A stretch of DNA of 37,113 nucleotides. Source: a virus. Below are positions 1-37,113 of the stretch, one piece after another. Each line of letters starts with the position of its first letter. Position 1 is the stretch's first letter. The stretch spans positions 1 through 37,113 of IMG/VR virus record IMGVR_UViG_3300042377_000343; one strand, 5' to 3'. Position numbers and translations under genes: made by a program. The notes under the pieces were generated by a model. The model did not search any database, was not told where the DNA came from, and saw nothing but the letters and a program-made list of their open reading frames with translations.

Positions 1-354
1 ATTACTGGACCTTGGTCTGGACTTTGACGATGACCCAGGCGGAGGGGGTGCGGTCCGTCACGGTCATAATGCGGAACTCCTGACCCCCATAGGCCACCAC
101 ATTCCCGAAGGCGATCAGACCCGGGTGGGCGGCGGCGTCCGTCCGCAGGAACTTCATGTCGAACGAGGTCTGGTTCATAAAGCCCCCCGTTTCCAAGTCC
201 TGCATGATGGCCGGCTGCGACATCAGCGCGTTTAAGGGTACTGGCGTCCCGCCTGGGACGTTTTTAACGGTCACGGCCTTAGGGATCTCGGAAAGGATTT
301 CCGAGGCGTCTACAGCCCATTCGTCCGTGATTCCCGACATGGGTTTAGCCCATT
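1..354. repeat. Left copy of the 354-bp terminal overlap
   Basis: Bases 1-354 match 36760-37113 with six mismatches, at left-copy positions 8, 92, 119, 127, 152 and 227. The repeat holds the whole 112-codon head-completion-like gene plus its upstream bases. Five mismatches are synonymous and one changes His to Asn. This is best read as a circular genome whose contig ends overlap, with the two ends drawn from slightly different strains. A true terminal repeat should be identical after replication. Confidence 0.9.
2..340 (-). CDS. Head-completion / head-tail joining-like protein (left-end copy)
   Basis: This 112-residue protein is the first gene after the major capsid gene and lies just upstream of the neck genes once the map is closed. 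That is where lambda-like phages place head-tail joining proteins such as gpFII. It is small, soluble and beta-rich, with a Gly/Pro turn near residues 30-33 and no membrane segment. A terminator-like hairpin and a copy of the late motif sit directly upstream. It is the same gene as the one at 36761-37099, differing by one residue (His here, Asn there). The function rests on position and size, not on a recognised motif. Confidence 0.6.
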   Translation of the reverse strand: MSGITDEWAVDASEILSEIPKAVTVKNVPGGTPVPLNALMSQPAIMQDLETGGFMNQTSFDMKFLRTDAAAHPGLIAFGNVVAYGGQEFRIMTVTDRTPSAWVIVKVQTKVQ

Positions 355-4938: not shown

Positions 4939-6804
4939 TCAAGCGGTTTCTTCCTCGGTCTGCTTTTCGTCAGGCTTACGGTCCTCGGGCTTGCCGTGGC
5001 GGTTCTTGCCGCGCCCGATGAGCTTGGCCATCAGGGCGGGTACCATGCCAATGACCTCGACGTCCCAAAGGTGGTTTGCCCGTTCGCCGATGGGAAGCCA
5101 GATGGCTTGCCCGTTCGCCTGCCTGGTGCGGTGTTCCGACTGCATCTGCTTGCGGTACTCGTCGCCGGCGTCTTCGGGGTAGGTGTGATGGCCAGCGCGG
5201 CGAAGTCGGGAGATGGAGTCCTTGAAGTAAAGGTTGGAGAACAGGTACAACTTGCAGGACGTCTGGCCGACTTGGATCACCTTGGCTCGGGCGTAGGGTC
5301 GATAGGCCACCTTGATGCCGTAGGGCGTCTGGATACGCCAAGGGAACTCGTTCTGGCCGGACCCCTTCGTGGCGTTCCAGGCGTACTTCGCACACATACG
5401 GTAGACGGTGTCGGTATTCGGTCCGTCACCCGAGTCGACGAAGACGAAGAAGTCGGAGACCTCCAGGCGTTTCTGGGCTTCCCGCAGTTCCTCCTCGGTG
5501 TCGCAGTATCCCCATTGCACCATGCGTGACTTTCCGTCCAAGGCCCACGCCCGGACGATCCAGTAGAAGCCCTTGCGCTGCACGTCGACGCCCATGAAGC
5601 GGAGTCGGGCGAACTGCTTGGCCTTTTTGTACTCGTCCTTGAAGGGCGGTTCGGCGAGCTTGCTATCGACCATGAACGCTTCGTCGTCCCATTGGTCGAG
5701 CATCTTGTAGCCCTGCGGCATGACTTCGCCTCCGCCGTCATCGGGATCGTCAGACCAACTCAGGGCCAGCCGCTTCTGCTTGAATTCACGACGGGCGACA
5801 TCGTCACCGTGTTCCTCGAAAGCCTGCTTTGCTCGGATGGCCATCTCCGCCAGTTTGCCCCAGTCTAAGCCCCATTGAGCGCAGAGGGAATTCCAATGGA
5901 ATCCGACGACGCCCTTGGGAGCGTTCTGATTCATGGGGATGTACTCGCCGGTCAGGTTCAGCTCGGCGCGGACTTCAAACGAATCACGGTAGCGGTGCTT
6001 GCACGACTTGCACTCGTAGGTGCAGCCGGCCTTGACCTTGTCCAAGTTCCAACCGTTCGGCTCCCGTGCGTCCTCGGGATAGATCAACTGCTCCCACTCC
6101 CATGCTTGGCGGGTTCCGCATTGCGTACACTTGAAAGTCCACTCCCGGCGGTCGGACTGGTTCCAGAGGTCGGTGATGTCGTCGCCTTCGACGCCGCCCT
6201 GCGAGACGAGCAGCGACTTGCCCTGCCAGATGAAAGCCGTGCGACGCGCCAAGGCTTCGTTCAGGTGACCCTTGGGCCAGAGCCAGACTTCGTCACCGCC
6301 GAGGAATCGGATGGAACGACGCTGAAGGTTCTTCTTGTTATTCGCACCCAGCACCCAGACGGTGTTACGCTCGAAACGGGTCTTCTTCCATTGGTTGCGT
6401 TCGGAGTCTTCCATCTTGGCCAGCGTCGCCGGCGTGGCTTCCCACATCGGACGAAGGCGGTCCTTCTGCCAGTCCTGTGCGTTGTCGTCGACGTCCTGCA
6501 AGAGCAGCGTAGGCCCAGGCGAACGGGCAGGGATGAAGGTGGACCAAAGTTCCAGCAGGGACGACTTGCCCATCTGGACGGCACCCAAGACGACGACCGT
6601 GGTGATCTCCGGGTCGCTCAAGGCGCGGAGGATGGGAGCGAGGAACGGCGTGGACTCGACTCGGAACGGACCGGGCTGCGGCGAGCCGGGTACTTCGCGC
6701 ACGTTGGCTTCCAGCCAAGCGACGATATCTCCCTCAGGGTCGGGCGTCATCATCGCACGGATGTGAGCCTCGAAAGTATCGACTGTCTTCGGGTCGATGA
6801 TCAT
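4939..6804 (-). CDS. Terminase large subunit (gpA-like)
   Basis: This 621-residue DNA-packaging motor and nuclease is close to lambda gpA in length. The ATPase has a Walker A at 74-81 (GAVQMGKS) and a Walker B with the catalytic acid at 168-174 (LGGDEVW). A Cys cluster follows (C226, C229, C261, C265, C268), a likely zinc ribbon. The nuclease domain shows acidic residues D407 (MGVDVQ), D457/D460 (FVDSGDG) and the late HLWDVE segment at 578-583, typical of gpA relatives. The gpA type suggests cohesive-end packaging. ATG and upstream TGA overlap (ATGA), showing coupling with the small subunit. Confidence 0.95.
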   Translation of the reverse strand: MIIDPKTVDTFEAHIRAMMTPDPEGDIVAWLEANVREVPGSPQPGPFRVESTPFLAPILRALSDPEITTVVVLGAVQMGKSSLLELWSTFIPARSPGPTLLLQDVDDNAQDWQKDRLRPMWEATPATLAKMEDSERNQWKKTRFERNTVWVLGANNKKNLQRRSIRFLGGDEVWLWPKGHLNEALARRTAFIWQGKSLLVSQGGVEGDDITDLWNQSDRREWTFKCTQCGTRQAWEWEQLIYPEDAREPNGWNLDKVKAGCTYECKSCKHRYRDSFEVRAELNLTGEYIPMNQNAPKGVVGFHWNSLCAQWGLDWGKLAEMAIRAKQAFEEHGDDVARREFKQKRLALSWSDDPDDGGGEVMPQGYKMLDQWDDEAFMVDSKLAEPPFKDEYKKAKQFARLRFMGVDVQRKGFYWIVRAWALDGKSRMVQWGYCDTEEELREAQKRLEVSDFFVFVDSGDGPNTDTVYRMCAKYAWNATKGSGQNEFPWRIQTPYGIKVAYRPYARAKVIQVGQTSCKLYLFSNLYFKDSISRLRRAGHHTYPEDAGDEYRKQMQSEHRTRQANGQAIWLPIGERANHLWDVEVIGMVPALMAKLIGRGKNRHGKPEDRKPDEKQTEEETA

Positions 6805-8231: not shown

Positions 8232-8600
8232 CTACCCGTGTCGTGGAAATATCAAACCGTTGTCATGCCGACCGAGCATCCCGTGACGCATGGCCTTGCG
8301 AATCTTGTTCCAGGCGTCCTTCTTGGTCAGCGGCTCGTCGTAGCACCGACCCCACTCGGCTGCGAACAGGTCTCGGAGTTCGTGGGCACGGTAGCCCCGG
8401 TCATCGGGGATCAGGTTCAGGACCGCCTGGACGAGCTGGGCGGCTTCCTCCGACTTGGCCGTCCGCGCTTCGTTCAGATGCTCGATGTGCTGCCGCATCC
8501 GTTCGGGCGAAAGACGCCATGCCCTCGCCCACGGCGACTCGGGACGACGGGTGATCGGCGCGGTGGCTCGCCGGCGGAAGGGGCGGAAGGGTTGGCTCAT
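8232..8600 (-). CDS. Winged-helix-like protein, first gene of the minus-strand operon
   Basis: This 122-residue basic protein starts with an Arg-rich tail (RPFRRRATAPITRR). From about residue 60 it has a probable winged helix: RAHELRDLFAAEWG, a loop, then KKDAWNKIRKAMRHGMLGRHDNGLIFP, where the last segment looks like the wing. It is the first gene leftward of the large divergent region, a common place for a regulator acting on the divergent promoters. A degenerate late motif and a small hairpin lie just upstream. No family name can be assigned. Confidence 0.6.
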   Translation of the reverse strand: MSQPFRPFRRRATAPITRRPESPWARAWRLSPERMRQHIEHLNEARTAKSEEAAQLVQAVLNLIPDDRGYRAHELRDLFAAEWGRCYDEPLTKKDAWNKIRKAMRHGMLGRHDNGLIFPRHG

Positions 8601-8700: not shown

Positions 8701-8719
8701 AATGAATTGTCTATATGTA

Positions 8720-8767
8720 TTGCTACTGTGGTTGCTACTGTGGTTGCCTAGACCAACATAGTAGCAA
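8720..8767. repeat. Iteron-like array of TTGCTACTGTGG
   Basis: Two perfect tandem 12-bp copies (8720-8731, 8732-8743) are followed by a partial third (TTGCCTA, 8744-8750) and an inverted relative (8753-8767, reading TTGCTACTATGTTGG on the minus strand). Direct plus inverted copies in a divergent region suggest binding sites for a phage regulator, or terminase-binding sites like the R sites of lambda cosB. Confidence 0.6.
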
Positions 8768-8870
8768 AACATATGGTTTTCGTTGGTTTACCCCCGGGTT
8801 TTTAGCGGGGTCGGGTGGGCTTCGCCCCCCCCGCTGGCGGAGGGGGGAATAGATTTCTTAGTGGGGAGTC

Positions 8871-8896: not shown

Positions 8897-8930
8897 AAAC
8901 AGGTCATCTTTCCGAAATCATGACTTGTTT
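8897..8930. repeat. Inverted repeat AAACAGGTCAT / ATGACTTGTTT
   Basis: AAACAGGTCAT (8897-8907) and ATGACTTGTTT (8920-8930) are complementary over 11 positions with one mismatch, separated by 12 nt. It is a probable regulator-binding site at the left edge of the compositional island. Confidence 0.5.
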
Positions 8931-9348
8931 ACCTTTCTTTCGGTCGTTCAATTTCCTTTGAACATTGCCGCCCGCGCTGTCGAGCTTGCCGCCCTTGCCG
9001 GCCATTGCCGCCGCCTAAGCGGGGCCGCTTGCCGATCGTTTGCCGTTGCCGGCGGACGTTGCCGCCCGTTGCCGTGCCTATGCCGTTGCCGTGCCGGTGG
9101 GGTAGGGGTAGGGGAAGACGTGCCGCCGCCCCGCCTATGCCGTTGCCGTGCCGCCGGTGATCCATGCGCGGCCCCATGCCGCCCCGCCCATGCCGCCCAG
9201 GGCCGGCGGACGGGGTAGGGAAGGGGTAACCCCGCCGGCCCCATAAAGGGAAGCCCCGCGCAACCGCCGGCGGACGTTGCCCCATGCCGCCCCGCCTGGG
9301 GTTGCCGTCCGTCCGTGATCAGCTCAAAAGCCCCGCCCTTTTCTTTAT

Positions 9349-9362
9349 GTCAAATTATTTGC
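9349..9362. repeat. Half-degenerate palindrome upstream of the 9424 gene
   Basis: GTCAAAT-T-ATTTGC is nearly the same as the perfect palindrome just after the 9424 gene (9818-9832). An AAGCCCCGCC word lies 11 nt to its left. A paired operator flanking one gene is possible. Confidence 0.4.
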
Positions 9363-9423
9363 TTTTGCCGTTGACGTGCCGCCGGCCGTGCCTTTGTCTT
9401 ATCCCGTAACCACTAACTAACAC

Positions 9424-9831
9424 ATGAAAACGCTTGCTCAACTCCGCAACCACCCCGCCGTTGAAGAGATTATCCAGGAAAGTGACTTCGGTTACCGCAC
9501 ATATGTGATCAATCTCAAAGCCGGCTTTGCTACTGATAACGGCGGCGGTCAACAATCCGGCACGGAAAGCACCCTTGCCGGGGTTGCCGCTTTCCTCCGA
9601 TCGGTTGCGCCTATGCCGGTTGAAATTGAAAGCCCGGTTGAAAACGTAAACCTTGCCGCCGCCCGTGTTTACGTTGCCAAGGAAAACGACTTTGCCGCCG
9701 GCAATGTTAACCTGAAAGAATTGATTGAAACTTTTAATGAGCTTTCGCCCGCCGCCCGTGCTTACCTTTCGCAAGCTCATGCCGAGGCAAAGGCCGCTTG
9801 GCTTGGATCAATCCGCCGTCAAATAATTTGA
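9424..9831 (+). CDS. Hypothetical protein, first gene of the plus-strand island
   Basis: This 135-residue soluble protein is of unknown function. It begins with MKTLAQLRNHPAVEEI, contains a Gly/Gln-rich turn near residues 40-45, an Ala-rich helical middle and a C-terminal helix (SPAARAYLSQAHAEAKAAWLGSI). Its stop codon lies inside a perfect palindrome. It opens a string of small genes sharing strong GCC and CTTGCC word bias, clearly different from the rest of the phage. No Shine-Dalgarno site is present; the start context is CTAACTAACACATG. No domain is recognised. Confidence 0.65.
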   Translation: MKTLAQLRNHPAVEEIIQESDFGYRTYVINLKAGFATDNGGGQQSGTESTLAGVAAFLRSVAPMPVEIESPVENVNLAAARVYVAKENDFAAGNVNLKELIETFNELSPAARAYLSQAHAEAKAAWLGSIRRQII

Positions 9832-9832
9832 C
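9818..9832. repeat. Perfect palindrome overlapping the stop codon of the 9424 gene
   Basis: GTCAAAT-A-ATTTGAC is a perfect 15-bp palindrome. A near copy sits 62 bp upstream of the same gene (9349-9362), so the gene is bracketed by related dyads. AAGCCCCGCC follows directly (9833-9842). Confidence 0.5.
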
Positions 9833-9867
9833 AAGCCCCGCCGCTTAACCCCTTCCCTTCCCTACCC

Positions 9868-9951
9868 ATGCAAAACCTAAAAGACGCATTGACCGCCGCC
9901 GCCCTGACTTTTCTCGCCTGGTTAACGGCCGTTGCCTTCCTTTCCCTTTAA
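9868..9951 (+). CDS. 27-residue single-span membrane peptide
   Basis: This very small ORF encodes a 27-residue peptide with one hydrophobic segment (residues about 8-27, ALTAAALTFLAWLTAVAF). The start is preceded by a pyrimidine-rich leader (CCCTTCCCTACCC) like those of its neighbours, and the gene fits neatly between 9831 and 9966, which supports its being real. It could be a small membrane protein acting on the host envelope. The function is unknown. Confidence 0.45.
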   Translation: MQNLKDALTAAALTFLAWLTAVAFLSL

Positions 9952-9965
9952 TCTCTTTCCCTAAC

Positions 9966-10103
9966 ATGAAACCTAAGCACCCCGTATTAGTCCCGTCTTA
10001 TCTACCTGAAACCGAATTATGGTATGTATATACCCCGGCCGGTGAATGGGAGATCTTTAAAACGCAATCCGCCGCTGAAAACTTTTGCGAGTCTCATGCC
10101 TAA
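9966..10103 (+). CDS. 45-residue hypothetical protein
   Basis: This small ORF encodes a 45-residue protein rich in Pro, Tyr and Trp, with the segment TELWYVYTPAGEWEIFKT. That pattern resembles the compact beta-hairpin modules found in many small phage proteins. The CTTTCCCTAAC leader directly precedes the ATG, as in two other genes of this island, and one base separates its stop from the next start. No family is recognised. Packing and leader support that it is translated. Confidence 0.5.
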   Translation: MKPKHPVLVPSYLPETELWYVYTPAGEWEIFKTQSAAENFCESHA

Positions 10104-10104
10104 C

Positions 10105-10434
10105 ATGAAAACCCCGCTCCCTCCCTCCCTCCAATCCGCCCTTGCCGAGGTCGCCGCTATTGCTGACGGCTTGGCTGAAACGTCATGCGTCATGCCGTCC
10201 GCAAAAATGGGCGGCATGAATGTCTCCGGCGTTTTAGACAACTTGGATCAGGTCGCCGCTTGCCTGACCTTGGATGAGCTGGAAAACGCCCCGGCCATGT
10301 TGAACGGCGCGGCCCTTGCTTTCCGGCAAACCTTTGATGGCATGACCGAGGGCTATGCCGCCGCCGGTAGACTCCAATCAATTGCCTATCAAATTGAATT
10401 AGAGCAAACCGCCGCCGCCGCCGCCCAGGCTTAA
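10105..10434 (+). CDS. Hypothetical Ala-rich helical protein
   Basis: This 109-residue protein starts at the ATG at 10105. The frame is open further upstream, but that would overlap the preceding gene. It is mostly helical and Ala/Glu/Leu-rich, with a short Gly-Met turn near residues 34-38, and ends in an Ala run encoded by GCC repeats. There are no membrane spans or known motifs. It belongs to the densely packed island and probably shares its transcript. The function is unknown. Confidence 0.6.
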   Translation: MKTPLPPSLQSALAEVAAIADGLAETSCVMPSAKMGGMNVSGVLDNLDQVAACLTLDELENAPAMLNGAALAFRQTFDGMTEGYAAAGRLQSIAYQIELEQTAAAAAQA

Positions 10435-10454
10435 CCCCTTTGCCTTTCCCTAAC

Positions 10455-10694
10455 ATGAGCCAACCCATAAACAACCCCTTGCAAATTGAGCTTTGCAATG
10501 GATCGACCTATTACCTGCCCGCCCTGGGCGGAGACCTGCCCCACGGAAAAGACATGGCGCCCGCCGCCCGTGCTTACATTGCCGACATGACGGCGGACGG
10601 CGGGCCTGAGCTTGCCGCTTGTCATGTTTCCATTTGGGCGGAGTTTGCCGCCGCCCTTGCTATTGCCGCCGCCGAAACCTTGCCCCGCAAATAA
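10455..10694 (+). CDS. Hypothetical protein
   Basis: This 79-residue protein begins with MSQPINNPLQIELCNGSTYYLPALGG, a beta-rich N-terminus, and continues with an Ala-rich helical half (ARAYIADMTADGG, then AAALAIAAAETL). The preferred ATG at 10455 directly follows CTTTCCCTAAC, the leader word also seen at 9955. The ARAYI stretch resembles the AARAYLSQA stretch of the 9424 protein, which may be chance given the Ala bias. The function is unknown. Confidence 0.6.
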   Translation: MSQPINNPLQIELCNGSTYYLPALGGDLPHGKDMAPAARAYIADMTADGGPELAACHVSIWAEFAAALAIAAAETLPRK

Positions 10695-10711
10695 CCCTTT
10701 CCCTAAAACCC

Positions 10712-11047
10712 ATGAAGCCCAAGAACAACCCCGTGCCGGCGGCAACCCCGGCAAACCTGGAAAACGTGCCGGTGCATAATCTCATTATGGAATTGCACCG
10801 CCGCAAATCCGAAGTGGCCTTTATTGCCGTCACCCCGTCCGACCTAGATGACTATTGGGGCACGGATAATAACGGAGACCCCTTGCCGTCCAACGTGCCG
10901 CCCACGCCGGAAGAATGGACCGCCGCTTGCCGTGCCTTTAATAGGTGGCAAGACAGCGGGGCATTTACTGAGGCAATGGAATACATGGGTGACGCATGGA
11001 TTGAAGAACAACTCCGCCGAAAGGCCGGAAAGGGGGAAAGCAAATGA
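10712..11047 (+). CDS. Hypothetical acidic protein upstream of the GP88-like gene
   Basis: This 111-residue protein starts at the ATG at 10712, after a CTTTCCCTAA leader. The N-terminal 20 residues are Pro/Asn-rich. Then come a helical segment (HNLIMELHRRKSEVAFIAV), an acidic loop (SDLDDYWGTDNNGDPL) and a C-terminal helical part with two Trp residues. It overlaps the GP88-like gene by four bases (ATGA), so the two are translationally coupled and may cooperate. No named family is recognised. Confidence 0.6.
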   Translation: MKPKNNPVPAATPANLENVPVHNLIMELHRRKSEVAFIAVTPSDLDDYWGTDNNGDPLPSNVPPTPEEWTAACRAFNRWQDSGAFTEAMEYMGDAWIEEQLRRKAGKGESK

Positions 11048-11943
11048 AGCCGGCAAACCTATGCCCTCCCACAAGCCCCGGCTTACCCCGTGGCCAGGTG
11101 GGCGACTACGCAAGCCCCGGCAAGCTTGCTTTCCTACGCCCCGCCGCCGCGCCGGTGATCCACCCCGCCGCTTCCCTTCCCTTCTATATGCCGTCATATT
11201 TGCTTTCCGTAGAAGCGGACGCAAAAACGGATAAGGGAACCGCAAGCGGATACCTTACCGGCATTCTATACCTTGCACCGGGCCAGCTTGCCGGGGTTGG
11301 CAACTTGTGCCCCCATGCGTCCGCCGGTTGCCTTGCCGCTTGTCTCTTTACCGCCGGACGCGCCGGCATATTTGAGGCGGTCAACGCCGCCCGTGTCATG
11401 AGGACACGTTTCCTTCATGACAACCGCCAGGCGTTTATTGCCGCCCTAAAAGGGGAAATTGCCGCTTTGATCCGCAAGGCCAAGCGGCGCGGACTAAAGC
11501 CGGTTGTCAGGCTTAACGGCACGTCCGACTTGCCCTGGGAAAAGTTAGCCCCGGAGCTATTCGCCGAATTCCCCCGCCTGACTTTTTATGACTACTCAAA
11601 GTCTCTCCGCCGTGCCGTTGCCTTTGCCAAGGGCGAACTTCCCCGAAATTATCACCTCACCTTTTCTTATTCCGAAACAAACGCCGCCGCCGCCGGGATT
11701 GCCCTTGCCGCCGGCGTTAACGTTGCCGCCGTGGCCGATGGGGTTAAGCCGGGGCAAAGGTTTGCTTTGCCTAGCTTGCCGGAGGCCCGTCCCACCTTTT
11801 CCGCCGACCGCCATGACTTGCGGTTTTTAGATAGAAAGGCAACGGACGGCAAAGGCCGCATCGGTATCTTAAAAGCGAAAGGCAAAGCACGGGGCGACAC
11901 GTCCGGCTTTGTAATCCGTGCAACCGCCGCTTCCCATGCGTAA
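11044..11943 (+). CDS. GP88-like / DUF7227-like phage protein with Cys cluster
   Basis: This 299-residue protein carries the signature of a phage- and plasmid-borne family of unknown biochemistry: a LTGILYLAPG start, NLCPHASAGCLAAC (C-x7-C-x3-C), AGRAGIFEAVNAARVMRTRFL, and VRLNGTSDLPWE. The three close cysteines and conserved Arg/Asn residues suggest metal or Fe-S binding. The middle and C-terminal parts alternate strands and helices like a barrel. The family match is from memory of the motif order, not from a search. It is coupled by ATGA to the gene before it and overlaps the next gene by 8 bases. Confidence 0.7.
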   Translation: MKPANLCPPTSPGLPRGQVGDYASPGKLAFLRPAAAPVIHPAASLPFYMPSYLLSVEADAKTDKGTASGYLTGILYLAPGQLAGVGNLCPHASAGCLAACLFTAGRAGIFEAVNAARVMRTRFLHDNRQAFIAALKGEIAALIRKAKRRGLKPVVRLNGTSDLPWEKLAPELFAEFPRLTFYDYSKSLRRAVAFAKGELPRNYHLTFSYSETNAAAAGIALAAGVNVAAVADGVKPGQRFALPSLPEARPTFSADRHDLRFLDRKATDGKGRIGILKAKGKARGDTSGFVIRATAASHA

Positions 11944-12454
11944 TCCTTCCGGCTTTGAATTCTACCACGGGCGGCGGTTGCCGGTTGTTTGCCGGGATGG
12001 GGTAATCCGTAGCGCGGTAATCACCGGCCAGGCGGACACTTGGTTTTCTATCCCCGCCGCCGTGCAAGTTACCGCCGCCGGCAAGCGGCGGACGGTTGCC
12101 GGTTTCCTTTCGCATGACATGGCCGGCAAGGTTTGCTTTAGGGCTTACCTTTACCGGGCCAATCATTCTCTCATCCCGTGGACATCCCACAAGCCCCGCC
12201 TGGCCAAGCTTGCGCGGAAACTAATTGCGGCAACCGCATATAGTAAAACGGCGGAAGGTTTGCCTAGTGATCACGCCGCCGCCCTTGCGGACGTTTGCCG
12301 GACGGAAGCGGCGGGGCTGACTGAGCCAAGCGGCCAGGAAAGCCCCGGTTGGATTGCACGCCGGCTTTTGCGGCGGTTGTGGGAGGAAGATGTGAACCGG
12401 CTTGCACGGTTTTTCGATACCTTGGGAAGGTTACAATCCTCCGCCGGTGAATAA
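11936..12454 (+). CDS. Hypothetical protein, last gene of the island
   Basis: This 172-residue protein starts at the ATG at 11936, overlapping the GP88-like gene. The first 90 residues are predicted strands (FEFYHGRRLPVVCRDGVIRSAVI, VQVTAAGKRRTVAGF). The remainder is helical and basic, ending RRLWEEDVNRLARFFDTLGRLQSS. It is followed by a strong terminator, so it closes the island transcript. No motif is recognised. It may act with the GP88-like protein because the genes overlap. Confidence 0.6.
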   Translation: MRNPSGFEFYHGRRLPVVCRDGVIRSAVITGQADTWFSIPAAVQVTAAGKRRTVAGFLSHDMAGKVCFRAYLYRANHSLIPWTSHKPRLAKLARKLIAATAYSKTAEGLPSDHAAALADVCRTEAAGLTEPSGQESPGWIARRLLRRLWEEDVNRLARFFDTLGRLQSSAGE

Positions 12455-12479
12455 AGCCGGCACAAGCCCCGCCCTTACA

Positions 12480-12508
12480 AGCCCCGCCGCAAGCGGGGTT
12501 TTTCTTTT
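12480..12508 (+). terminator. Rho-independent terminator of the island operon
   Basis: CCCCGC (12482-12487), loop CGCAA, GCGGGG (12493-12498), then TTTTTCTTTT. The left arm contains the recurrent AAGCCCCGC word of this region. It ends the 9424-12454 transcription unit. Confidence 0.85.
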
Positions 12509-12911
12509 GCCTAATGCTTTGCCGTGCAACCGTGCCGCACAAGCCCCGCGCCGCCCCGCTGATGGCCGCTTGCCGTCCGCCCTTCCCCTTTCCCCTTTCC
12601 GCCCCGTGCCGCCCCGCCTGGGGCAAGCTAGGCAGGTTTGCCGCCCCGTCCGCCTTTGCCGTCCGTCCGCCGCCCTTGCCGCCGCTTGTGATCCATGCGC
12701 GGCAAGCCCCGTCCGCCGGCTTACCTTGCCCCGTGCCGCCCTTTGCCGCCGCTTGCGGGGCTTTCCCTTCCCTTGCCCCGTTGCCGGCCTTGCCGCCGGC
12801 ACGGTCAAACCCCTTTTGCCGGCTTGCCGCCGGCACCGTGCCTCCCCGGAAGGGCGGCAACCGCCGCCGCGCCGCTCATTTAAAGCCCCACCTTTGCCCC
12901 ACCTTTAAACC

Positions 12912-12926
12912 TAGGTCGCCGACCTA
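12912..12926. repeat. Perfect palindrome TAGGTCG-C-CGACCTA
   Basis: This is a 7-bp perfect dyad with one central base, right where GC-rich low-complexity sequence gives way to AT-rich sequence. A related AGGTCGG word recurs near 12996. It is a probable protein-binding site. Confidence 0.55.
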
Positions 12927-12935
12927 AGATTGGCT

Positions 12936-12960
12936 AATCCTGATAACCTGACTCAGGATT
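12936..12960. repeat. Inverted repeat AATCCTGA / TCAGGATT
   Basis: Perfect 8-bp arms at 12936-12943 and 12953-12960 are separated by 9 nt. The right arm is followed by ACAGGATT, a further partial copy. It is part of the dyad cluster in the putative origin. Confidence 0.5.
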
Positions 12961-13172
12961 ACAGGATTCAAATTTTCAAAATCCTAGGGGTCGCCAGGTC
13001 GGACTCAGACTGACCCCCCCCCAGAAAACCGAAAATTTTCAAATTCCCCATAAAAAATTCATTTTGAGGGGGTGCAACCCCGATTTTTCTGGGATTTTCC
13101 TATGCATTTTTGCGGGGATTAATAGGCCATAATCTCCGCGCCGCCGACACGTCGACACGCATTGGTCGATTG

Positions 13173-13201
13173 GCTTTAATAGCACATTTGCCAATTAAAG
13201 C
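13173..13201. repeat. Inverted repeat GCTTTAA / TTAAAGC
   Basis: 7-bp arms (13173-13179, 13195-13201) are separated by 15 nt; an overlapping alternative pairing is TTGGC/GCCAA (13170-13174 with 13190-13194). The competing pairings may indicate a regulatory or origin structure. Confidence 0.4.
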
Positions 13202-13349
13202 GGACGTCTATTGGCGATAATAACGCCGGCTACGCATGGCCGACGTGCATGATCTGAAAACGTCGACCCCCTAAAATATTGCGACCCCTTTTATTTTTCG
13301 GAAGGATTTCCCCCCCCTGGGGTATAAGTATTTCGTTGCCTTTGTTTTT

Positions 13350-13365
13350 TAGGGGGCTACCCCTA
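13350..13365 (+). promoter_or_regulatory. Hairpin directly upstream of the lysozyme-like gene
   Basis: TAGGGG-GCTA-CCCCTA forms a 6-bp stem ending 6 nt before the ATG at 13372. The right arm can also pair with the following AGGGGG, so alternative folds could hide or expose the start. That would be a simple way to delay endolysin translation. This is inferred from sequence only. Confidence 0.4.
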
Positions 13366-13371
13366 GGGGGT

Positions 13372-21324: not shown

Positions 21325-21569
21325 GAAAAGCCCCCATTAACCTGACCGAGTACACCCATAAGATGCCCCGCCGCTGCCACGCCCTGCTCGTCATCCTCGA
21401 CGGGGGCAAGGTCGAGCATCCCGAGTTCGTGGCCTACAGCCGGGACGAGTTCGCCACCGAGCTGGCCAAGTGGAAACGCACCGTGCTGCCTACCCTCCGC
21501 CGCTCTAACGTCGAGTTCTGGGAACTGCACAATGGCGATCACCAGGCGGTCAATCTGCTCAACCGATGA
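21321..21569 (+). CDS. Hypothetical protein upstream of the first Mom-like gene
   Basis: This 82-residue protein overlaps the HTH gene by four bases and the Mom-like gene by four bases. The sequence contains a beta segment (RCHALLVILDGG), an acidic and aromatic middle, and a charged helix (FATELAKWKRTVLPTLRR). There is no catalytic signature. Its tight coupling means it is made together with the first Mom-like protein and might assist it, for example in regulation. That link is inferred from overlap only. Confidence 0.55.
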   Translation: MRKAPINLTEYTHKMPRRCHALLVILDGGKVEHPEFVAYSRDEFATELAKWKRTVLPTLRRSNVEFWELHNGDHQAVNLLNR

Positions 21570-22282
21570 GCCTTCAACTGCCAGAAAACAAGTTGGATAA
21601 AAATAGATGCAAAATCTATTCATGCGAATTTAAGCACATTCGCCATATTTTTGAGGAGTTTCATTACAAAAAAGGTAACATGGGGGGGGGTATCAGCATT
21701 TGCTTCGCTATGTTTATTGACGGAAAAATCGCCGGAGGAAGTGTGCTTGGTAAGCCAAGACATGAGAAAAAATACAAAAGTTGCATAGACATCAGAAGGA
21801 TGGCCTGCCTAGACGACGCACCTTTTAACAGCGAGTCATGGTTCCTTGGTAAGATTATCAAATGGATTTCCTGCAATACGGATTACCAGAGCGTACTTTC
21901 ATACAGCGACATGACCGTCGGACATAAGGGTACGATATATAAAGCCTCTAACTTCAAGGAAATCGGCACTACAACCCCATCTAAATATGTAGAATGGGAG
22001 GGCCGCACTTACCATCCGCGCAGCCTTTCAATTGAAAGAGACTACTCTTACAGGCTTCGTGAGGCGGTAAAGGCCGGGGAAGCTTTGGTGAAGACCGGCC
22101 TGCCAAAGAAAATCTGGATGTATGAAATCAAAAGAAAGTCCTTGAGGTCTTCTTTTATTGTGAACAACATTTCCCAGTCCAACGACCTATTTGCGGAACA
22201 AGTGTCGAAAAAGACACGCACCGATTCCATCGGTGAGAGCGAGGTGAAAGTCCTCGGTTCCGCTCCAATTTCACAAAACTAA
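21566..22282 (+). CDS. Mom-like DNA hypermodification protein 1
   Basis: This 238-residue protein is almost the length of Mu Mom (241), whose family modifies adenines to block host restriction. Family-like features are EFHYKKGNMGGGISICFAMF near residues 31-50, the GKIAGGSVLGKP strand, and VLSYSDMTVGHKGTIYKAS at 110-128, the most diagnostic part. The extra 65-residue C-terminus is basic and Ser-rich. Base composition is clearly more AT-rich than neighbouring genes, suggesting recent acquisition. Substrate and chemistry cannot be read from sequence, so acetyltransferase-fold relatives with other targets remain possible. Confidence 0.7.
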   Translation: MSLQLPENKLDKNRCKIYSCEFKHIRHIFEEFHYKKGNMGGGISICFAMFIDGKIAGGSVLGKPRHEKKYKSCIDIRRMACLDDAPFNSESWFLGKIIKWISCNTDYQSVLSYSDMTVGHKGTIYKASNFKEIGTTTPSKYVEWEGRTYHPRSLSIERDYSYRLREAVKAGEALVKTGLPKKIWMYEIKRKSLRSSFIVNNISQSNDLFAEQVSKKTRTDSIGESEVKVLGSAPISQN

Positions 22283-35808: not shown

Positions 35809-36761
35809 GGTGTGTTGGTAAGGGTGAAGCCTTGGAGTCGGTTGACCACGTCGATGAGTTTACCGTGGTTGCGCGGGGCTTGCAAATGCTTGAGGATGGC
35901 CACACGCATGGCAAAGGCCCGGTGGTTCATGGCCATCCGCATGAAGTGGTAGCCTTGGCTGTAGTTGCGGCCTACGGTCGAGCCGAGCTTGATTGTTGGG
36001 TCTGGGCGTCCGAGCCTAGGCTGGTAAATTGAGGTTCCGGCACCTTGGTTCATAATCCAGGCGGAGGTGGGCATACGGCCTAGTTTCAGGCCAGCGTAGT
36101 ACCAGCCAGACTTGAGCCTGCCGACGCGCTGCTGGACCCGTTTGATGTAGGACTCAACTGGCTTCCAGTTGTCCACATATACCTTTTCGGTCTTTGCGGT
36201 CTCGTAGACCTTATAGGAAGGTTTGCCGCGCCGGCGTTCGTGGATGGACTTGATGGCGGCTTCATTTGTCCCCATCATAAAGCGAGTCTTAGGCGTTCCC
36301 TTCTTGGACTCAACTTGCTTGAAATAATCGAATTCGCCTTGGCCTAAGACTCGTCCCTGTGCGACCATCTTGAAGATATAGTCAGGATAATGGGGAGGGG
36401 GAAGTTTAGCCTTGGCACCTACCCATGCGGATAGAATGCCTACATTGCCGGCAGCGGCCACCCCTGCTGCGGGAGCTTGGGCCAATGGCGCGAAAATCTT
36501 GCGGACATCCCGGCTGACAGAGTTCCTTCCCTTCGTTCGTGCCTTATTTCCGAAGCCGCCTTCTCCGCCCTTGCTGATCGATGGCTGGGAGCCTGAGAAC
36601 GGAGGCGTGAAGTCGCACATATCCTTGGCGAATAGGCGCGACTGCTGCTTCACGATTTCCTCGGAAGACTTACGCATGACCATCGCATACAGGGCTAGGT
36701 GCTTGGCGAACTGAGTGTAGTCCACCTTGACGCCCTTGGCGACTGTGACCACTTGGGCCAT
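35805..36761 (-). CDS. Neck / tail completion protein (gpZ- or HK97-gp10-like)
   Basis: This 318-residue basic protein contains VKQQSRLFAKDMCDFTPPFSG near residues 38-58, a helix-Pro pattern of HK97-gp10 and gpZ-like neck proteins. Later regions (RLKSGWYYAGLKLGRMPTSA, near 220-240) fit as well. The protein is longer than gp10-type members, with extra Gly/Lys-rich segments in the first third. Its start shares a base with the head-completion gene (TAATG). It probably links the head to the tail in the connector stack. Position gives most of the evidence. Confidence 0.6.
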   Translation of the reverse strand: MAQVVTVAKGVKVDYTQFAKHLALYAMVMRKSSEEIVKQQSRLFAKDMCDFTPPFSGSQPSISKGGEGGFGNKARTKGRNSVSRDVRKIFAPLAQAPAAGVAAAGNVGILSAWVGAKAKLPPPHYPDYIFKMVAQGRVLGQGEFDYFKQVESKKGTPKTRFMMGTNEAAIKSIHERRRGKPSYKVYETAKTEKVYVDNWKPVESYIKRVQQRVGRLKSGWYYAGLKLGRMPTSAWIMNQGAGTSIYQPRLGRPDPTIKLGSTVGRNYSQGYHFMRMAMNHRAFAMRVAILKHLQAPRNHGKLIDVVNRLQGFTLTNTP

Positions 36762-37113
36762 TACTGAACCTTGGTCTGGACTTTGACGATGACCCAGGCG
36801 GAGGGGGTGCGGTCCGTCACGGTCATAATGCGGAACTCCTGACCCCCATAAGCCACCACATTCCCGAAGGCGATCAGCCCCGGGTTGGCGGCGGCGTCCG
36901 TCCGCAGGAATTTCATGTCGAACGAGGTCTGGTTCATAAAGCCCCCCGTTTCCAAGTCCTGCATGATGGCCGGCTGCGACATCAGGGCGTTTAAGGGTAC
37001 TGGCGTCCCGCCTGGGACGTTTTTAACGGTCACGGCCTTAGGGATCTCGGAAAGGATTTCCGAGGCGTCTACAGCCCATTCGTCCGTGATTCCCGACATG
37101 GGTTTAGCCCATT
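36760..37113. repeat. Right copy of the 354-bp terminal overlap
   Basis: Same sequence as 1-354 with six mismatches. Joining it to the left copy closes the map to about 36,759 bp and reunites the capsid and neck gene blocks into one minus-strand operon. It ends 11 bases into the late motif seen complete at 344-359. Confidence 0.9.
36761..37099 (-). CDS. Head-completion / head-tail joining-like protein (right-end copy)
   Basis: This is the 112-residue protein identical to the left-end copy except for Asn in place of His in the DAAA-x-PGL segment. The gene is complete here and joined to the neck operon by a TAATG overlap with the gpZ-like gene, showing its true neighbours. Only one gene exists on the closed map. 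Synonymous differences between the copies indicate two natural variants under purifying selection. The function rests on order (after the capsid gene, before neck genes) and size. Confidence 0.6.
   Translation of the reverse strand: MSGITDEWAVDASEILSEIPKAVTVKNVPGGTPVPLNALMSQPAIMQDLETGGFMNQTSFDMKFLRTDAAANPGLIAFGNVVAYGGQEFRIMTVTDRTPSAWVIVKVQTKVQ

Follow-up and report, generated by a model that had tools for sequence, protein, structure and literature searches.

A word-biased module of small genes next to a candidate cos site is conserved and exchanged within a phage family

IMG/VR virus record IMGVR_UViG_3300042377_000343 (37,113 nucleotides, the whole of which was analysed and is here called the window) contains a block at 8930–12905 whose DNA differs in its short-word vocabulary, or dialect, from the rest of this phage genome, and which holds about seven co-directional small open reading frames (ORFs) on the + strand followed by a terminator-like hairpin. 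The block opens with a non-coding part (8930–9423) and closes with another (12502–12905), both assigned to the dialect by Markov-model prediction. Between them are a gene for 135 amino acids (9424–9831) with no confident family match, ORFs for 45 (9966–10103, read from the sequence), 109 (10105–10434, start set at 10105), 79 (10455–10694) and 111 amino acids (10712–11047, start set at 10712), a gene for a 299-amino acid GP88 family protein (11044–11943; PF17338, E = 4.1e-43) and a gene for 172 amino acids (11936–12454), while the hairpin, a pattern match with a 9-pair stem and subsequent T-run, lies at 12479–12501. The 172-amino acid gene is specific to this phage family among IMG/VR loci, with 54% identity to its homologue in the relative L169, and a sequence search returned family members and no other matches. 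No function emerged for the small genes of the block from family searches with Pfam, PHROGs, NCBIfam and PADLOC. The initial annotation had described small genes with a GP88-like gene and a terminator of their own, in agreement with the Pfam and hairpin matches.

Word counts bear out the compositional island of TTGCC, GCCGCC and CAAGCCCCG words that the same annotation had proposed. TTGCCG occurs 46 times on the + strand of the block, where 3.1 would be expected from the remaining sequence, with 12 copies in reverse, compared with 27 forward and 23 reverse in the other 33 kb, and the 108 copies across the window compare with 28 (standard deviation, sd, 4) in shuffles. GCCGCC is found 52 times forward and 5 times in reverse in the block (33 and 41 in the remaining 33 kb), and TTGCCGCCG has 11 copies there, a density of ~3 per kb. 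Eight of the ten CAAGCCCCG copies in the window are in the block (9832, 11072, 11111, 12190, 12463, 12478, 12540 and 12703), where shuffles give 0.71 (sd 0.82) for the whole window; all eight positions originally listed were recovered, one shifted by 11 bases and the others by at most 2. Likewise, the tetranucleotide L1 distance is 0.53–0.70 in 1-kb segments wholly or partly in the block and 0.26–0.46 elsewhere, 5-mer entropy is 8.88 in the block against a genome minimum of 9.25 outside it, and a dialect-versus-core likelihood profile is above zero at 9.0–12.9 kb, below zero in core genes and about zero in the conserved non-coding flanks at 8.6–8.93 and 12.9–13.37 kb. All three measures place sharp edges near 8.93 and 12.9 kb, as had been suggested by eye from the sequence. 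Guanine-cytosine (GC) content is 0.54–0.64 in block segments and 0.48–0.66 over the window, and the block thus departs from the rest of the phage in vocabulary and not in GC content, a distinction that the initial annotation had missed.

The dialect extends across genes and spacers alike. Markov models trained on the genes of individual blocks predicted the non-coding ends of those same blocks at 1.58–1.88 bits per base, compared with ~1.9–2.0 for a core model and 1.9–2.9 for models of other dialects. Using both-strand block-gene models of orders 3–5, the 5′ part gave 1.65–1.73 bits per base (1.96–2.10 with core-genome models) and the 3′ part 1.49–1.61 (1.94–2.07). Training on the reverse complement was almost equal to training on the forward strand, and training on both strands was best. 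A depleted word and its reverse complement are both scarce, and this holds for coding as well as non-coding DNA; CAGA and TCTG are absent where 14 of each are expected, and CGAC and GTCG occur 8 and 4 times against 36 each. Words lacking in the block of the window include CGAC, ACGA, CAGA and CTGC, and in that of L169 CATC, AGCC and CAC. Depletion is present in all three codon frames, and words of 4–6 bases account for most of the effect, with longer direct repeats in some excess. The strand symmetry, the sharing with non-coding DNA and the presence in every codon frame therefore indicate a process that acts on double-stranded DNA and not on mRNA or codons alone, and selection at the RNA level was rejected since the vocabulary is nearly strand-symmetric.

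Relatives were gathered by a GP88-based search of IMG/VR, which found 13 close relatives, all with the block and the same bias as the window. Wherever a contig extends far enough, the block sits between terminase-side genes and a lysozyme-like gene, and a check for relatives lacking it found no empty site among those spanning the locus. When segments from all loci fetched to that point were ranked by 4-mer structure, this phage family filled the top ranks; high word counts in the unrelated loci L051 and L031 came from low-complexity repeats, read as Gly/Pro-rich fibre-like genes, and were set aside. Around GP88 relatives of ≤62% identity in other phages we saw no comparable word bias. In relatives whose terminase is 67% identical, the same flanks enclose a block that is nearly devoid of TTGCCG-type words. 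The L161 block is instead rich in GACGCCAGG and CACCACC and that of L156 in GAGGCC and CCAGC. In L169, at 96% terminase identity, the block between these flanks is rich in GTCGACG, GACGTC and CGGCCG, while the top words differ again in L174, L185, L188, L189 and L192, some of which are partial or weaker. There are thus at least three clear dialects, and within each lineage the genes and spacers of the block share a private vocabulary, nearly strand-symmetric, whose words are ~4–6 bases long. L189, whose block is AT-rich with 36% GC and is possibly in another dialect, also has a tandem repeat of GCGCCCAACGTCATCCGGA close to the right end of that block (L189:5400–5510).

L169 shows how blocks move. 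Its terminase and lysozyme-like proteins are both 96% identical to those of the window and its core genes 91–97% identical in amino acid sequence, while GP88 is 62–63% identical; at 4-fold sites, GP88 differs by 0.65 and core genes by 0.15–0.29. A backbone this close to the window's with a diverged block in another dialect indicates that blocks are exchanged as units. The block is an old, syntenic, family-conserved and exchangeable module of small genes. Of the inserted cassette first proposed, the exchangeability stands, given the diverged block of L169 on a near-identical backbone, but a recent insertion does not, as 13 relatives have the block in the same place with the same bias.

Outside their blocks, several lineages (L161/L181, L189, L185, L156 and the window) strictly lack restriction-type sites, and the sites differ between relatives. 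L161 has CCGG 0 times (72 expected), ACGT 0 (63), GCGC 0 (55), CGCG 0 (53) and AGCT once (42), and also avoids GGACC and GCAGC genome-wide; L189 has no CATG (31 expected) and avoids GTAC and CTAG; L185 has no CGCG (28 expected), and the window has no GCGCGC (24 expected). These absences attest strong restriction pressure on the phages and are a readable record of host restriction systems. Blocks keep the bans of their own backbones, with 0 banned 4-mers in the L161 block against 79 expected, which shows that blocks and backbones have long shared their hosts and argues against a recent foreign origin.

The block appears to lie at an end of the packaged chromosome. Among family contigs, 8810 is the exact start of three on the right side and 8824 the exact end of five on the left side, and another four stop at 8827–8829. 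About 12 ends fall within 20 bp, and the two sides overlap by 15 nt (8810–8824, perhaps up to 19 nt), as expected if 5′ overhangs had been filled in. At this point the sequence reads GTCGGGTGGGCTTCG and then a run of C. The large terminase subunit (4939–6804, − strand) is of the GpA type found in lambda-type cohesive-end (cos) phages (PF05876, E = 1e-37; PF20454, E = 2e-17), and the portal belongs to the lambda family (PF05136). A small gene without a Pfam match (8232–8600, − strand) occupies the usual place of the small terminase subunit between the large subunit gene and the candidate cos site. Between that gene and the candidate cos site, at 8713–8774, is a candidate cosB-like element, so named for its position, which is that of cosB in lambda; it consists of TTGCTACTGTGG twice in tandem with 18-nt inverted arms. 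The pile-up of contig ends together with the GpA-type terminase points to a likely cos site at 8810–8829, directly beside the block, and the dialect is limited to one side of it. In lambda, packaging starts from the side with the terminase genes and ejection from the end packaged last, and by this rule the block would enter the cell first.

Our overall reading, to which we assign a probability of roughly 45%, is that the block is an entry-end host-takeover module whose vocabulary has been shaped by host DNA surveillance. Its positional part is the firmer: by analogy with the pre-early region of T5, the block probably forms the end of a lambda-type chromosome that is packaged last and ejected first, and has host-takeover and anti-defence functions. 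The entry idea is supported by the homologues of GP88, the main gene of the block, in the T7-like phages HTVC120P and Lo5R7ANS (of Pelagibacter and Mesorhizobium), where it is gene 2–3 from the left end and, in HTVC120P, upstream of RNA polymerase. As first-ejected DNA the block would reach the cell before the genes it encodes could act, and this exposed segment would lose words targeted by Type I, III or IIG restriction, by bacteriophage exclusion (BREX)-like systems or through the protospacer-adjacent motifs (PAMs) of clustered regularly interspaced short palindromic repeat (CRISPR) systems. Dialects would thereby differ from host to host, and entire blocks would pass from one backbone to another through recombination at the conserved flanks. 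That the vocabulary is what remained after selection removed the words seen by such systems is a doubtful step, because 6-bp palindromes are avoided no more strongly in the blocks than in the backbones. A wider statement, still tentative but somewhat easier to accept, is that a region-limited process, selective or mutational, rewrites the entry module in a lineage-specific, strand-symmetric dialect that is inherited and exchanged as a unit. We know of no described process that rewrites one compartment of a phage genome into a lineage-specific dialect.

Several results weigh against an entry-end block shaped by surveillance. The contig ends fall at a strong G/C hairpin that could also break assemblies, in which case the pile-up would be an artefact. 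Observed-to-expected ratios of 6-bp palindromes in block and backbone are 0.59 and 0.53 in the window, 0.87 and 0.51 in L169 and 1.07 and 0.71 in L188, and the block is not poorer in palindromic restriction-type sites than the remaining genome, as a leading module would be expected to be. A plain Type II restriction purge was rejected on this ground, and surveillance, if it is the cause, would therefore have to act through PAMs or through other systems whose targets are short or non-palindromic; Type I and III sites were not systematically avoided by viruses in a 2018 survey (PMC6286503). Furthermore, the extra depletion is graded and mostly of 3–4 bases instead of a clean set of missing 5–7-bp sites, and the strength of the dialect has no gradient by distance from the candidate cos site. 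In 4-mer signature the L161 and L156 blocks are closer to their own cores (Spearman 0.62 and 0.49) than the block of the window is to its core (0.22). The L169 block contains 31 copies of CGGCCG, which its backbone avoids (1 against 11 expected), an exception that fits its recent block swap.

The main rival is regional turnover, in which short templated copying, whether by slippage, by microhomology or by annealing through RecT and exonuclease, repeatedly rebuilds the DNA by the cos end and local words spread by drift as 'cryptic simplicity', so that dialects would be arbitrary and neutral. Direct 12-mer repeat pairs do exceed order-4 Markov simulations (142 against 79 in the window, 257 against 71 in L173 and 113 against 35 in L169), inverted repeats are also in excess, if less so, and the phage has genes for RecT-like and exonuclease VIII-like proteins. 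Between the window and L173, L170 and L010, GP88 differs by 0.34–0.40 at 4-fold sites against 0.16–0.26 for core genes, as local turnover would predict, although block exchange alone may explain this divergence. Slippage copies in one direction only, yet the vocabulary is nearly strand-symmetric, and it also forces synonymous choices on a conserved protein; we consider turnover unlikely. Codon usage tuned to translation in strongly expressed early genes would account for the valine codons, with GTT 22 and GTC 8 in the block against 11 and 191 in core genes, but it is contradicted by the non-coding ends, which share the dialect, and by depletion in all three codon frames, and is the least plausible of the explanations.

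An origin of the block in another genome or satellite with its own word bias, as the initial annotation had favoured, perhaps acquired repeatedly by recombination, would agree with the block exchange in L169 and with CGGCCG being enriched in a block whose backbone avoids it. However, block DNA had no match among phage records, GP88 reached at most 47% identity in the bacterial and plasmid genomes searched, with a single weak match in a plasmid search, and in a survey of 152 bacterial genomes, made up of one phylum and a few further genomes, no genome approached the word density of the block (TTGCCGCCG at ≤~0.24 per kb against ~3 per kb). A donor genome is disfavoured by these results, and the blocks also keep the bans of their own backbones. 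A satellite-like unit finds no support in gene content, as no integrase or packaging genes of its own were matched among the block proteins searched, and altogether we regard a foreign cassette as improbable. Positive selection for the words, as sites bound or modified by a DNA-binding protein, from phage or host, with a specificity that shifts between lineages, would explain why enriched words recur at 6–9 bases (11 copies of TTGCCGCCG and 8 of CAAGCCCCG) and why the vocabulary operates at the double-strand level, yet a whole word family is enriched and not one motif. Moreover Mom, the sole DNA-modification enzyme recognised here, does not follow the dialect, and we regard such selection as improbable too. 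The Mom-family gene of the window is at 21566–22282 (+ strand; PF25680, E = 9e-22), while the Mom proteins of L161 and L171 are of a different type, 81% alike mutually and ~27–38% to that of the window. Avoidance of Mom targets was rejected, as L171 has the dialect of the window yet an L161-type Mom.

The arrangement resembles the pre-early, or first-step-transfer, DNA of T5, whose first-entering end makes up ~8–9% of the genome and carries host-takeover genes; here the block is ~11% of the genome and beside a candidate end. T5 has its pre-early region in terminal repeats, unlike this phage, for which the order of ejection is suggested by analogy. It also resembles the class I early region of T7-like phages in the position of GP88, though packaging differs and GP88 in the other phages fetched was not surrounded by a dialect block. 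The host-takeover module of SPO1, whose small early genes lie together in the terminal redundancy, is similar in that small genes are clustered here as well. To our knowledge, neither T5 has a lineage-specific vocabulary across genes and spacers nor the SPO1 module a word dialect, and it is this vocabulary that is novel. In a T5-like phage the pre-early region is free of EcoRI sites (PMC13250531), and restriction-site avoidance and PAM depletion in phages likewise deplete words at the double-strand level (PMC6286503, PMC4246573). Those known depletions are genome-wide and of defined sites, whereas here the vocabulary changes broadly and in one module only.

If the dialect reflects what host surveillance meets first, one could infer from the missing words which sequences the defences of uncultured hosts recognise, and use such blocks to locate the entry end in genomes of uncultured phages; if its cause is mutational, there would be an unknown regional process that rewrites coding and non-coding DNA alike. 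In either case, a compositional island alone is no proof of foreign origin, and here it is an old syntenic module.

Further characterisation of GP88 gave 148.3 bits to PF17338 (curated cut-off 24.4) and a structure model with a predicted local distance difference test (pLDDT) score of 83. The top 12 rows of a structural comparison were all radical S-adenosylmethionine (SAM) enzymes, at low Z-scores of 4.7–6.1, while Foldseek with the model gave nothing at E ≤ 0.001. The canonical radical SAM motif CX3CX2C is absent from GP88, whose conserved cysteines are Cys89-x6-Cys96-x3-Cys100, and the model is thus a weak hint of a radical-SAM-like fold and gives no assignment.

No relatives of the terminase were found in the bacterial genomes searched, and a tblastn match to Verrucomicrobia phage P8625 was too distant to fix the host. 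The relatives L128–L131 have terminases 87–89% identical to that of the window at a GC content of 43–45%, compared with ~60% in the window's clade. To the right of the block, a conserved non-coding flank (12906–13371) that is not in the dialect aligns in most close relatives and contains numerous repeats, both inverted and direct, with GCGACCCC arms among them; it is a possible origin, promoter or entry-pause element. The two ends of the window (1–354 and 36760–37113) repeat each other inexactly, at 98.3% over 354 bases, and the window probably represents a single complete circular map of ~36.76 kb whose assembly drew on a mixed population.

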